Assembly: GCA_030457025.1 (NCBI GenBank)
Contig: JAKDSA010000007.1
Span: 1 to 64,000 of the forward strand
Reading direction: 5' to 3'
DNA length: 64,000 nucleotides
Source of the DNA: Brevibacterium sp.
GTDB lineage: Bacteria; Actinomycetota; Actinomycetes; Actinomycetales; Brevibacteriaceae
Made by a program: the position numbers and the translations under genes. The notes below the pieces were generated by a model. That model saw only the letters and a program-made list of their open reading frames with translations, searched no databases and was not told the DNA's origin. Positions 42,007-45,761 of this stretch are shown here, in pieces. How positions within the stretch are numbered: the first letter of the stretch is position 1; each line of letters starts with the position of its first letter.

Positions 42007-42387
42007 ATGGCTAAGCTCACCCCCGAAGAGCTCATCGAAGGTTTCAAAGAGCTCACCCTGATCGAACTCTCGGACTTCGTCAAGAAGTTCGAAGAGGTCT
42101 TCGAAGTTGAAGCTGCTGCACCTGCTGCCGCAGTTGCTGCTGCTCCTGCTGCCGCTGAAGAAGCTGCTGAAGAGCAGACCGAATTCGACGTCATCCTCGA
42201 ATCGGCCGGCGAGAAGAAGGTTCCTGTCATCAAGGAAGTTCGTGGGCTCACCTCCCTCGGACTCAAGGAAGCCAAAGACCTCGTCGATGGCGCTCCTAAG
42301 GCAGTTGTCGAAGGCGTGTCCCAGGACGCAGCCGAGAAGGCCAAGGAAACCCTCGAGGCCGCTGGCGCAACCGTCACCCTCAAGTGA
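42007..42387 (+). CDS. rplL: 50S ribosomal protein L7/L12
   Basis: The 126-residue stalk protein has an N-terminal dimerisation domain ([30 protein letters not shown]), an Ala-rich hinge and the C-terminal factor-binding domain ([39 protein letters not shown]). It recruits translation GTPases. The terminator after it separates rplJL from the unusual membrane-protein genes that follow. Confidence 0.96.
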
Positions 42388-42419: not shown

Positions 42420-42455
42420 CGAAGAACCCCACAGCTGATGCTGTGGGGTTCTTCG
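42420..42455 (+). terminator. Intrinsic terminator after rplL
   Basis: A perfect 16-bp stem (CGAAGAACCCCACAGC at 42420-42435 with its complement at 42440-42455) and a TGAT loop form a very stable hairpin. The downstream T-tract is weak (GTCTCC); the internal GGTTCTTC may serve instead. Confidence 0.8.
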
Positions 42456-42589: not shown

Positions 42590-43825
42590 GTGACCGAGAG
42601 TGGCGCCCAGGCCAAACTGCTGGAAAGACTGAGTTCCCGGATCCGGGATGCCTGGCGAAGCGACCCCCTCTACATCGATCCGATCATCGTTCCCGGTCTC
42701 ACTGACAGTCAGAAGGCGGCGGTCGAGCGCGCCTCCGAGCAGGCTGCGCGATCGGGTCTTGCGCATTTCATCGCCATTATGCCTCCTATGCCGAATTCGG
42801 AGGAGGCCACATGGTCCCGTTTCACCTCGGAACTGGCATATGCGATGCACCAGAACAACAGCGAAGAGCAGACGGTCGTCCTCTTCAGCCAGGCAGATGA
42901 TGCTGCCCGATCATATGCCTACCTCGTGGATGCGAACGGTCCGGCGGCGCCCCCAGGATCAGACTTTCTCGCCCGTTCGTCCAGTGACGACTTTCTGCCG
43001 GTCGAATTGGCCGTGCCCTATCAGATGCAGATTCTCATCGCGGCAGCAAACGGAACCGAGCCTCCGGCGCCGCCGGACTTCGACACTCGTGAGCCCGGCG
43101 ATTCCGGAGGAGACTACATCGACGCCCTCGGCCTGGAGAAGGGCAACCCGGACCTCGTCGTCTTCGGAACCACGGCAGCTGCTGCCCTGGGACTGAGCGT
43201 CTGGCTGCTGCGGCGCCGGACGAAGTACTCCTGGCGGAACTCCCTGACCTCGAAGCGCGATCCCGTGCGAAGCGAACAGCTGCCCGACCGGGTGGTCAGC
43301 GCGCTCGAGCCACTTCCGGAGCCGCACCACCCCAGCGAGGAGATGTGGACGCTGCGCGATCGCGGCCGTCGAGCGCAGGAGGCGATCAGGGTGCTCATCG
43401 AGGCTCATCCCGATTGGGCGGTCAGCGCCGACTTCTCTCACCGCTACGGCATCGAGAATCTGGTGTCCACGCATAAATGGATACGGGCTCGGCTGCGCGG
43501 ATCGAGCAAGGCCGACCCCGAGGTGCCTCGATTCTGCTTTCTCTTTCCCCACCATCGGGGCAAGATCGAGAAGTTCGCACTCAAGCAACAGGGAACCACG
43601 CTGTCAGTCGATATGTGTGAGAGCTGCCGTGACGAAATCAACGCAGGACACGAGCCGGAGCGTCTCATGGTGCCCAAGCGTCCCGGTTCGAAGAAACCGA
43701 TTCCCTATTATCAGCGCACCGATGTCTACGCACTGTCCGGCTTCGGCAGCTTCCAGCCCCTCGAAGACGCCGTGCTCGAATCCATGGGCTCACCGTCGAC
43801 GTCCTCGAGAGGCGGACAGGGATGA
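42590..43825 (+). CDS. DPxYID membrane protein A (N-domain, one helix, zinc-type C-domain)
   Basis: This 411-residue protein is of no family I recognise. Its N-terminal domain (about 1-165) contains SDPLYIDPIIVPGL at 24-37 and IAIMPP at 61-66, a layout loosely like TPM domains. One membrane segment lies at about 187-207 (DLVVFGTTAAAALGLSVWLL), followed by RRR, so the N-domain is predicted outside the membrane and the rest in the cytoplasm. There is no N-terminal signal. The cytoplasmic part has Cys316-x5-His322-x20-Cys343-x2-Cys346, a probable zinc site. The start is GTG at 42590, 135 bp after the rplL terminator. It overlaps protein B (ATGA). Confidence 0.6.
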   Translation: MTESGAQAKLLERLSSRIRDAWRSDPLYIDPIIVPGLTDSQKAAVERASEQAARSGLAHFIAIMPPMPNSEEATWSRFTSELAYAMHQNNSEEQTVVLFSQADDAARSYAYLVDANGPAAPPGSDFLARSSSDDFLPVELAVPYQMQILIAAANGTEPPAPPDFDTREPGDSGGDYIDALGLEKGNPDLVVFGTTAAAALGLSVWLLRRRTKYSWRNSLTSKRDPVRSEQLPDRVVSALEPLPEPHHPSEEMWTLRDRGRRAQEAIRVLIEAHPDWAVSADFSHRYGIENLVSTHKWIRARLRGSSKADPEVPRFCFLFPHHRGKIEKFALKQQGTTLSVDMCESCRDEINAGHEPERLMVPKRPGSKKPIPYYQRTDVYALSGFGSFQPLEDAVLESMGSPSTSSRGGQG

Positions 43826-44610
43826 ACCCGGTGGCGAAATTCGGCGCGGCGGTCGTCATCTTCGGTGCAGTGGCAACGGGCTCGGCGATCTACAGCAGCT
43901 CCGAATTCGACGAAGCCAAACAGGCACGCATTGCCGCGGCTAACGACGGCACGGTCGTGGTCGACTCGATCTATGGCGATCGCATCGAAGGCCGATACGA
44001 CCCGAACTATGACCCGAGCCGCTATCAGGCGATTGCGAAGTCGTTGCAGTCCGACCCGATATACATCGACGCATATCGGGCATTTGACGTCGACGATGAG
44101 AGCCTCGCGACGATCCGCGACGAGGTCGAGAGCCTCGAGATGCCGATCTACGTCGCGATCCTGGCCACCTCGCAGGTCGACGACGCCGACGGGAATCCTG
44201 ACCTGCTTGCGGCTCGGGTTGCACAGGAGCTGCCTGACGAGCGTGCCACCGTGGTTGTCGTCGGTGATGTCACCGAAGGGATTGCCGACAAGGGAGCCGT
44301 CCGGGACTTGGATACCTATGATGTGGAGACCGACGTCGACGACAATGATTCTGCCGTGGCGCTCGACTATGTGCGAGCGCTCAAAGGGGCCGAAGTCGAG
44401 GACTGGCAGCACAGTATGTCGCGAAGTCTCGACGATGAGGGGCAGCCGATCGTCGTCGACGAGGACGCCCCTGACGATCCGGCGACCCTCGCCTATCCGG
44501 TCGGAGCAGCGGTCTGGAGCACGGTACTCGGCCTCATCGTCGGGGGAAGCTTGGGAATCGGCGGCCTCCTCGGGTGGAGAGCGTTCAAGAAAAGGAGGCG
44601 AAATTCGTGA
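43822..44610 (+). CDS. DPxYID membrane protein B (two helices, extracytoplasmic domain)
   Basis: This 262-residue protein has an N-terminal membrane anchor (about 5-23; VAKFGAAVVIFGAVATGSAIY), an acidic domain of about 200 residues and a second helix at about 229-252 followed by FKKRRR. The acidic domain carries SDPIYIDAYRAFDV at 77-90, MPIYVAILATSQV at 107-119 and ATVVVVGDVTEG. The domain is therefore predicted outside the membrane. The DP-[IL]-YID and the following strand-forming motif match protein A, but the zinc-type C-domain is absent. It is coupled at both ends by 4-bp overlaps (ATGA, GTGA). Function unknown. Confidence 0.6.
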   Translation: MNPVAKFGAAVVIFGAVATGSAIYSSSEFDEAKQARIAAANDGTVVVDSIYGDRIEGRYDPNYDPSRYQAIAKSLQSDPIYIDAYRAFDVDDESLATIRDEVESLEMPIYVAILATSQVDDADGNPDLLAARVAQELPDERATVVVVGDVTEGIADKGAVRDLDTYDVETDVDDNDSAVALDYVRALKGAEVEDWQHSMSRSLDDEGQPIVVDEDAPDDPATLAYPVGAAVWSTVLGLIVGGSLGIGGLLGWRAFKKRRRNS

Positions 44611-45761
44611 CAACTGATGGACAGCAGATTGCCGAGGCACTCGACGACGATCCATTTCACATCGACGGAGCGCTCGAAGGCACCCTCAATGCGGATCTCC
44701 TCAACCAGGCGCAGGAGACGGTCAAGAGCCTGGACTATGACGTCTACGTCATCGCCGTCGATGAGCAGTCCCTCGACCGGGATCTGCTGGAGCAGATCAA
44801 GGTATCCAATGGAAGCGAAGGGGCGTTCATCATGATCAACGGCGATAACCAGATCGCTGTCGATGTGAACTTCGAGGACGACCACGATCTCAAGATGCAG
44901 GTGGTGGACCAGATGTCGGTTGCCCGTGATGAGTGGAATCACAACTCCCCGTCGACGACCAAGCTCAACATCCTCCTCGACCTCTATGCGCAGCCGCAGG
45001 AGTACAAGAACGACGATGCCGGCACCGGGCAGGAAGCACCCGGCAGCGAGGTTCAGACCGTTGACGGCTCGGGGTCCTTCGCTCCGATGTTCCTCGGCGG
45101 GGCAGTGCTCGTACTCGCCCTCGTCATCGCAGGCGTATTCCTCACGCGTTCGCTGCGAGAGCGGGCTGGCCACCGTCGCACTCAGAAGCAGTTCGAACTG
45201 CCCAACCGCCTCCTCGACCGTGTCGATTACCTGCAGCTGCGATCGCTGCGAGAGGACATCAACGCAGATACGACCCAGCTCGCCGAGCAGATCGATCATC
45301 TGCACACCCAGACGCTCGACGCGGAGAATGTGGCCCGGGTCGAGCGGGCACTCGATGCCTATCAGACGGCCCGCAGAATCGTCGATGACGAGGGGTCTGA
45401 ACGGGTCGACCTGGCAGGGGCAATGGTCCTCCTCCGGCAGGCCGGCCGCGAGATCTCGACGGTGGAATCCGGTAAGAAGAACCATGCCATCCGCTCCGAC
45501 AGCCGACTCCCGCAGAGTCTGTGCACGATCAACCCGCTGCACGGCGAGGCCCAGATGCGGGTCCGAATCGAGACGAATTCGACGAATGTCCGCGTCCCCG
45601 TGTGCCGCAGCTGCCAAGCGGACCTGCGTTCAGACAATCAACTGCAGTGGATCTTCGACGGCGACCGCCCCTATGTCGAAGGCGACAGCGTCTGGGCGCA
45701 GACACTGTTCGGTGCCATCGGCTCGGATCTCGTCACTGCCCTGCACAGGCAGGGCAGATGA
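44607..45761 (+). CDS. DPxYID membrane protein C (N-domain, one helix, zinc-type C-domain)
   Basis: The 384-residue protein repeats the layout of protein A. An N-domain carries DDDPFHIDGALEGTL at 13-27 and SLDYDVYVIAVDEQSL at 41-56. One helix lies at about 158-179 (FAPMFLGGAVLVLALVIAGVFL) with SLRERAGHRR after it, then a helical cytoplasmic region and Cys306-x5-His312-x20-Cys333-x2-Cys336. The cysteine/histidine spacing is identical to protein A, so the C-domains are homologous. The GTG at 44607 overlaps the stop of protein B. Its 3' end overlaps the convergent MBL gene by 29 bp. Function unknown. Confidence 0.6.
   Translation: MTTDGQQIAEALDDDPFHIDGALEGTLNADLLNQAQETVKSLDYDVYVIAVDEQSLDRDLLEQIKVSNGSEGAFIMINGDNQIAVDVNFEDDHDLKMQVVDQMSVARDEWNHNSPSTTKLNILLDLYAQPQEYKNDDAGTGQEAPGSEVQTVDGSGSFAPMFLGGAVLVLALVIAGVFLTRSLRERAGHRRTQKQFELPNRLLDRVDYLQLRSLREDINADTTQLAEQIDHLHTQTLDAENVARVERALDAYQTARRIVDDEGSERVDLAGAMVLLRQAGREISTVESGKKNHAIRSDSRLPQSLCTINPLHGEAQMRVRIETNSTNVRVPVCRSCQADLRSDNQLQWIFDGDRPYVEGDSVWAQTLFGAIGSDLVTALHRQGR

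Follow-up and report, generated by a model that had tools for sequence, protein, structure and literature searches.

Three overlapping Brevibacterium genes encode a derived, probably multi-subunit variant of an Rv1476-related family with a predicted TPM fold and PspA-linked relatives

Introduction

What is made by three overlapping genes, here named A, B and C (together ABC), that are inserted among ribosomal protein and RNA polymerase genes in Brevibacterium? They occupy positions 42,590 to 45,761 of the window, which is the whole analyzed stretch of 64,000 nucleotides from Brevibacterium sp. (GenBank assembly GCA_030457025.1, contig JAKDSA010000007.1, positions 1 to 64,000). An earlier note on this DNA described them as a duplicated sensor or scaffold set, in which extracytoplasmic domains are joined through a helix to metal-binding cytoplasmic domains. 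The present analysis assigned ABC to an Rv1476-related family with TPM fold, of which it is a derived and probably multi-subunit form; the tail has a genomic link to PspA in relatives. The TPM fold itself is taken from predicted structures.

Results

Gene structure and homology

The genes and their parts are listed by position in the window.

42590..43825, + strand: gene A, 411 aa; N-domain, membrane helix, helical part and tail
42611..43075, + strand: outer domain of A with predicted TPM fold (aa 8-162; AlphaFold2 model, top eight VIA-align matches are TPM proteins)
43154..43210, + strand: membrane helix of A (aa 189-207) with positive C-terminal flank, from hydropathy
43526..43786, + strand: putative cytoplasmic tail of A with C316, H322, C343 and C346 (23/23 rows)
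43822..44610, + strand: gene B, 262 aa; membrane helix, N-type domain and membrane helix, without the tail
44023..44301, + strand: N-type domain of B, homologous to that of C (about aa 68-160; hhalign 97.1%)
44607..45761, + strand: gene C, 384 aa; N-domain, membrane helix, helical bundle and tail
44607..45005, + strand: outer domain of C with predicted TPM fold (aa 1-133; AlphaFold2 model, VIA-align)
45087..45143, + strand: membrane helix of C (aa 161-179), from hydropathy
45201..45479, + strand: putative cytoplasmic helical bundle of C (aa 199-291; AlphaFold2)
45519..45758, + strand: tail of C with C306, H312, C333 and C336, followed by PY and W-x2-T-x2-G (31/31 rows for the four ligands)

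The overlaps A/B and B/C were 4 bp each, and the coordinates proposed in the earlier note were confirmed. Of 32 named loci, 22 were compared together with the window, and in every case an overlapping in-frame start of B was found at the stop of A (23/23; in L105, L108 and L116 the overlap was taken from ATGA, covered by the open frame of B), and the 4-bp overlap of B and C was kept in 19 of the 23, the remaining four having gaps of 3-7 bp. All three are genuine genes, subject to purifying selection. Their closest named relatives come from Brevibacterium, which points to this genus as the source of the window. C is 79% identical to that of B. sandarakinum, and the nonsynonymous and synonymous rates (dN/dS) against this species were 0.13/0.57 (A), 0.17/0.73 (B) and 0.13/0.65 (C); dN was lower than dS in 15/15 comparisons with five relatives per gene.

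Profile comparisons placed A, B and C in one homologous family, linked mainly via C: C matched A over nearly its full length (hhalign 96.9%, E 1.6e-10) and B over the N-domain (97.1%, E 5.7e-11), beyond chance and as expected of a duplicated set, and the direct match between A and B was weak (36%, E 3.7e-4). The shared motif was present as DPLYID (A), DPIYID (B) and DPFHID (C), and the tail site C-x5-H-x20-C-x2-C was present in both A and C. The residues C, P, H, C, C and the later PY of the tail were invariant in 31/31 C rows and 23/23 A rows, while DPxYID was looser, its final D being found in 22/31 C, 21/23 A and 23/23 B rows. The exact agreement in tail spacing noticed in the earlier note holds in the window, but identical H-x20-C spacing is limited to some A/C pairs and varies among relatives. 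A conserved four-ligand set of the zinc-binding type was found in the tails of A and C, although not in every paralogue, and judging from this pattern, the Cys-His-Cys-Cys domain of both proteins probably binds zinc.

No match above cut-off was obtained for A, B or C in Pfam and NCBIfam, or for the tail with any model of the two databases; A, B and C also had no match in PHROGs. A Pfam scan of 16 C-type proteins yielded no consistent family, a search of viral contigs with C found none, and a search of plasmids with C found one Streptomyces record. In searches of open-licence literature on Rv1476, PspA and TPM domains, no title or abstract dealt with the Cys-His-Cys-Cys tail. The three proteins were thus not placed together in one characterized family, in agreement with the earlier view that no named system has this make-up; PF20381 (Rv1476), to which C connects (see below), is poorly characterized.

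Predicted fold of the outer domain

The DPxYID outer domain of C and A has, in structure predictions, the TPM fold. The C model, obtained by AlphaFold2 with 31 natural sequences, had a mean predicted local distance difference test score (pLDDT) of 76, and that of residues 1-130 was 81-93 in each ten-residue block. When this domain was compared by VIA-align, TPM proteins ranked highest, with Cg2496 at Z 11.1 (3.2 Å, 113 residues), and further Z values were 10.6 for BA41, 10.3 for PG_0361, 10.3 for Psb32, 10.2 for TLP18.3 and 9.7 for 7tbr. Chains of the mycobacterial oxidase supercomplex also matched the C model (6adq_J, Z 8.7). Matches of similar Z to C residues 195-297 were helical bundles of many unrelated proteins. 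The A model had a pLDDT of 70.5; its first eight VIA-align matches were TPM proteins with Z values from 9.1 to 6.0, only three of them reaching Z 8, and an unrelated chain first appeared at Z 5.8.

Since the sequence link to TPM is not significant, the fold assignment depends on the predicted structures of C and A. The best PF04536 (TPM) score among relatives was E 0.24 (L079), below the cut-off. In a sequence search of the PDB, the C profile gave a best E of 0.12; the top match of the parent-family profile was the TPM protein 2kpt (E 0.02, not significant alone), which was not recovered with the N-domain profile alone. The "weak resemblance" to TPM seen in the earlier note is thus a fair description of the sequences, but was too cautious for the fold.

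Architecture and membrane topology

Hydropathy revealed two membrane helices in B, which lacks the tail, and one each in A and C, as had been read before. Several further Brevibacterium encode A and B as a single protein (domain, membrane helix, tail, membrane helix, domain and membrane helix), with C following. Sequence comparison identified the B part of this fusion in L036/L123 and L022; its counterpart in L033 and L034 kept the two later helices, but no B domain was recognized there. A topology with the tails inside and the N-domains outside is consistent with the charges flanking the helices and with the order of the A-B fusion, and the arrangement of outer domain, helix and inner metal-site-like domain proposed at the outset fits both.

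A two-gene form was found in Streptomyces (L032, a plasmid of Streptomyces sp. NBC_01237, and L079), in which one protein combines two N-domains with a tail and its neighbor has a single N-domain and a tail. Its domain order differs from that of the Brevibacterium A-B fusion, and its proteins possess N-terminal hydrophobic leaders. Leader-like N-termini were also observed in PspA-linked relatives and in second-set C-type proteins, but not in A and C, in which about 160-190 residues would need export ahead of one helix. No signal peptide was seen in A, and an in-frame stop lies shortly upstream of its start.

Relationship to Rv1476 and to PspA-linked proteins

Among 396 Actinomycetota genomes, the C profile gave matches in 28 and a profile of deep-branching relatives in 56, some of them weak; full-length relatives of C are spread across the phylum. 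A typical protein of this parent family consists of a signal peptide, N-domain, membrane helix, helical part and tail, often with a Gly-rich end. The parent family matched nearly the full length of C (99.7%, E 1.4e-26) and the tail of A (97.7%, E 2.3e-12).

None of A, B and C matched PF20381 above its cut-off; the connection of C with this family is made, at the sequence level, through intermediate relatives. Four of 17 parent-family proteins passed the cut-off (L089, L171, L177 and L182), all four adjoining pspA, and the match covered the N-domain and first membrane helix. The 156-position model of PF20381 differs in having no region corresponding to the tail.

The parent gene was directly adjoined by pspA in 15 of the 34 deep-branching genomes examined, and a Pfam check of neighbors identified PspA in 6/6 and PspAA in 2/2 genes tested. 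In Brevibacterium, the pspA locus contains a tail-only relative (membrane helix, helical part, tail and Gly-rich end). The panel for this comparison consisted of 59 genomes, 37 from Brevibacterium and 22 others: the tail-only relative was present in 37/37 and 0/22, PspA in 37/37 and 13/22, and PF04536 in 0/37 and 13/22, respectively. The tail-only gene was 2.0-3.6 kb from pspA in 36 of the 37 Brevibacterium genomes; in the genome of the window, the two are on different contigs (the tail-only gene is L093:2339-3172, G000:C109). The four pspA loci read had the order pspA, pspAA, peptidase gene and PspAB gene, then the convergent tail-only gene, and for L246 Pfam confirmed an M48 peptidase, PspAA and PspAB between pspA and the tail-only gene. 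The fourth ligand was Asp in the tail-only relatives read. A classical TPM protein (PF04536) adjoins a pspA gene in a different family of the order to which Brevibacterium belongs (L043, 1698-4019 and 912-1643).

ABC is comparable to the actinobacterial phage shock protein (PSP) loci (pspA, pspAA, M48 peptidase and PspAB) through both its parent family and the tail-only relative, and differs from them in lying elsewhere in the genome. The excerpts of PMC11237479 contain no mention of the Cys-His-Cys-Cys tail.

Loss and duplication in Brevibacterium

A C match was found in 29 of the 37 Brevibacterium genomes, two of these being decayed (G008, the B. iodinum locus L118, and G028). Both A and C of L118 are interrupted by stops, and A is split in L102. 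Elsewhere, A is truncated in L258, L259 is an empty site, and L265 has a deletion remnant. By genome, the interval from rplL to the neighboring metallo-β-lactamase (MBL)-fold gene lacks any match to A, B or C in G022, only A residues 2-186 are matched in G007, and a remnant of A and C is left after deletion in G028. On the other hand, several Brevibacterium possess second paralogous sets or C-type genes (L033, L037 and L040, also L039 and L044), of which the C-type proteins have leader-like N-termini.

Genomic neighborhood

The gene order is rplL (42007-42387), A, B, C and rpoB (from 47668). The MBL-fold gene (PF00753; 45736-46545, - strand) is convergent with C in the window, and adjoins rplJL-rpoB in 28 of the 32 named loci as well as in 6/8 genomes where ABC is missing or decayed. 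In the 24 closest named loci, rplJ and rplL precede ABC and the MBL-fold gene follows, with rpoB beyond in 23; of the other eight, four have ABC upstream of rplJ-rplL, the MBL-fold gene and rpoB, and four have no rplJ-rplL, MBL-fold or rpoB gene in the stretch examined. One further feature was read from the sequence 3' of rplL.

42421..42454, + strand: perfect hairpin with 15-bp arms and a 4-base loop

This hairpin possibly separates ABC transcription from that of the ribosomal genes. It is not followed by a T run and was absent from the terminator scan listing, and the promoter scan gave no site upstream of A.

Discussion

We favor, at even chances, the reading that A, B and C act together as a hetero-oligomer, an accessory or assembly factor for membrane complexes with its origin in the PspA-linked family. 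In the simplest picture, an outer TPM-fold clamp would be joined across the membrane to an inner metal-site domain: A, B and C would each present a TPM-fold (Rv1476-related) domain outside, and A and C would hold the helical part and the small Cys-His-Cys-Cys domain inside the cell. Gene coupling, together with the A-B fusion of some relatives, suggests that the three proteins most likely form one hetero-oligomer. The outer domains may hold or survey a membrane protein complex while it is assembled, repaired or under stress, and a cytosolic partner may be recruited by the inner tails; in the parent family, this partner would probably be the PspA machinery encoded alongside.

The predicted N-domain fold of C and A is that of TPM proteins (TLP18.3, Psb32, BA41, Cg2496, Msmeg_4692/CcoZ and YdjH), from which ABC differs in having no significant PF04536 match in A, B or C and in the addition of the tail. 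In the excerpts of the papers cited here, TPM proteins assist membrane complexes, in keeping with the favored reading. YdjH is a TPM-domain partner of PspA, for which a chaperone-like role was proposed, while competing functions have been proposed for TPM domains (PMC11237479). Activity of cbb3 oxidase was reduced in a mutant of CcoZ, a protein similar to Msmeg_4692 from the oxidase supercomplex of mycobacteria (PMC8267372). TLP18.3 is located at photosystem II, with a rubredoxin-type protein on the opposite face (PMC13089150), which serves as an analogy only.

Several observations weigh against this reading. On the structural side, Foldseek alone was weak for C (best E 0.055, BA41), and for A gave unrelated top rows, with BA41 at rank 45 (E 2.2); A, B and C had no PF04536 match, and hhalign of the N-domains against 12 TPM domains gave 6% and 1%, not significant. 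As A and C have no signal peptide, the export of their N-domains is inferred only. The A-type tails of second sets (L033 1-1995, L037 and L040) have lost most ligands, although their first Cys and the pattern around it are retained, and Asp replaces the fourth ligand in 9/13 parent-family rows reaching that position; a metal is therefore not essential throughout the family. Regarding the PspA link, ABC itself does not adjoin pspA, nor does any of 11 Streptomyces-like (f21/g26) parent-family loci, and 13 of the 17 parent-family proteins miss PF20381 (L183 being below the cut-off and 12 others without a match), some of which adjoin pspA. The neighbors of ABC (rplJ, rplL, the MBL-fold gene and rpoB) point to no client. 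Finally, since 8/37 Brevibacterium genomes have no C match (one is only 86% complete) and ABC is decayed in others, ABC is dispensable.

The alternative that survives best, possible but unlikely, is the sensor of the earlier note: an envelope-stress sensor, in which sensing of a ligand or of damage by the outer TPM-fold domains would change the inner zinc-like domains, and these would control a cytosolic regulator, for instance PspA or a transcription factor. Calcium binding is possible for TPM domains, and a membrane-spanning architecture with a conserved metal-site-like domain on the inside, like the link of relatives to PspA, would suit this role, but no regulator gene was recognized beside ABC and ligand binding by ABC is purely hypothetical. 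Overexpression of Rv1476, cited as essential in the same paper, lowers the tolerance of sodium dodecyl sulfate (SDS), lysozyme and peroxide (PMC10888442), a phenotype that would agree with a sensor. Because relatives are PspA-linked and TPM proteins have accessory or assembly roles, such a role appears to fit at least as well as sensing.

We consider it distinctly improbable that ABC is a lineage-specific conflict, defense or surface-variation module that is duplicated, fused and lost and has no housekeeping role. Such a module would be expected to occur patchily, with pseudogenes and second paralogous sets, as is seen in several Brevibacterium, and of the two weak PADLOC matches of C, both confined to its helical part, one is to JetD1 (E 0.0022); however, A and B have no PADLOC match, PHROGs gave none, and purifying selection and the constant rpl-rpoB place in 28/32 named loci argue otherwise. 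Anti-phage defense was considered and ranked low. An enzymatic role as a phosphatase, after the Pfam name of the TPM domain, is very improbable: the predicted fold would allow it and PMC11237479 mentions the hypothesis, but the DPxYID residues are not strictly conserved and the same paper favors a chaperone-like role for PspA-linked TPM domains.

An extension of the accessory-factor reading is put forward only tentatively. The tail may represent a metal-dependent domain not described before, by which PspA is docked or regulated from the membrane in many Actinomycetota. ABC may be a three-subunit, trans-acting version joining the outer TPM-fold clamp to the inner docking site; these proteins would then represent a new class of transmembrane PSP component.

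For a family without database models, this analysis provides a predicted outer fold, a conserved inner candidate metal site and a genomic link to PspA. To our knowledge, it is poorly understood how actinobacteria other than mycobacteria attach PspA to the membrane, and the coupling of outer TPM-fold domains with inner metal-site domains may offer a handle on both PspA tethering and TPM function.

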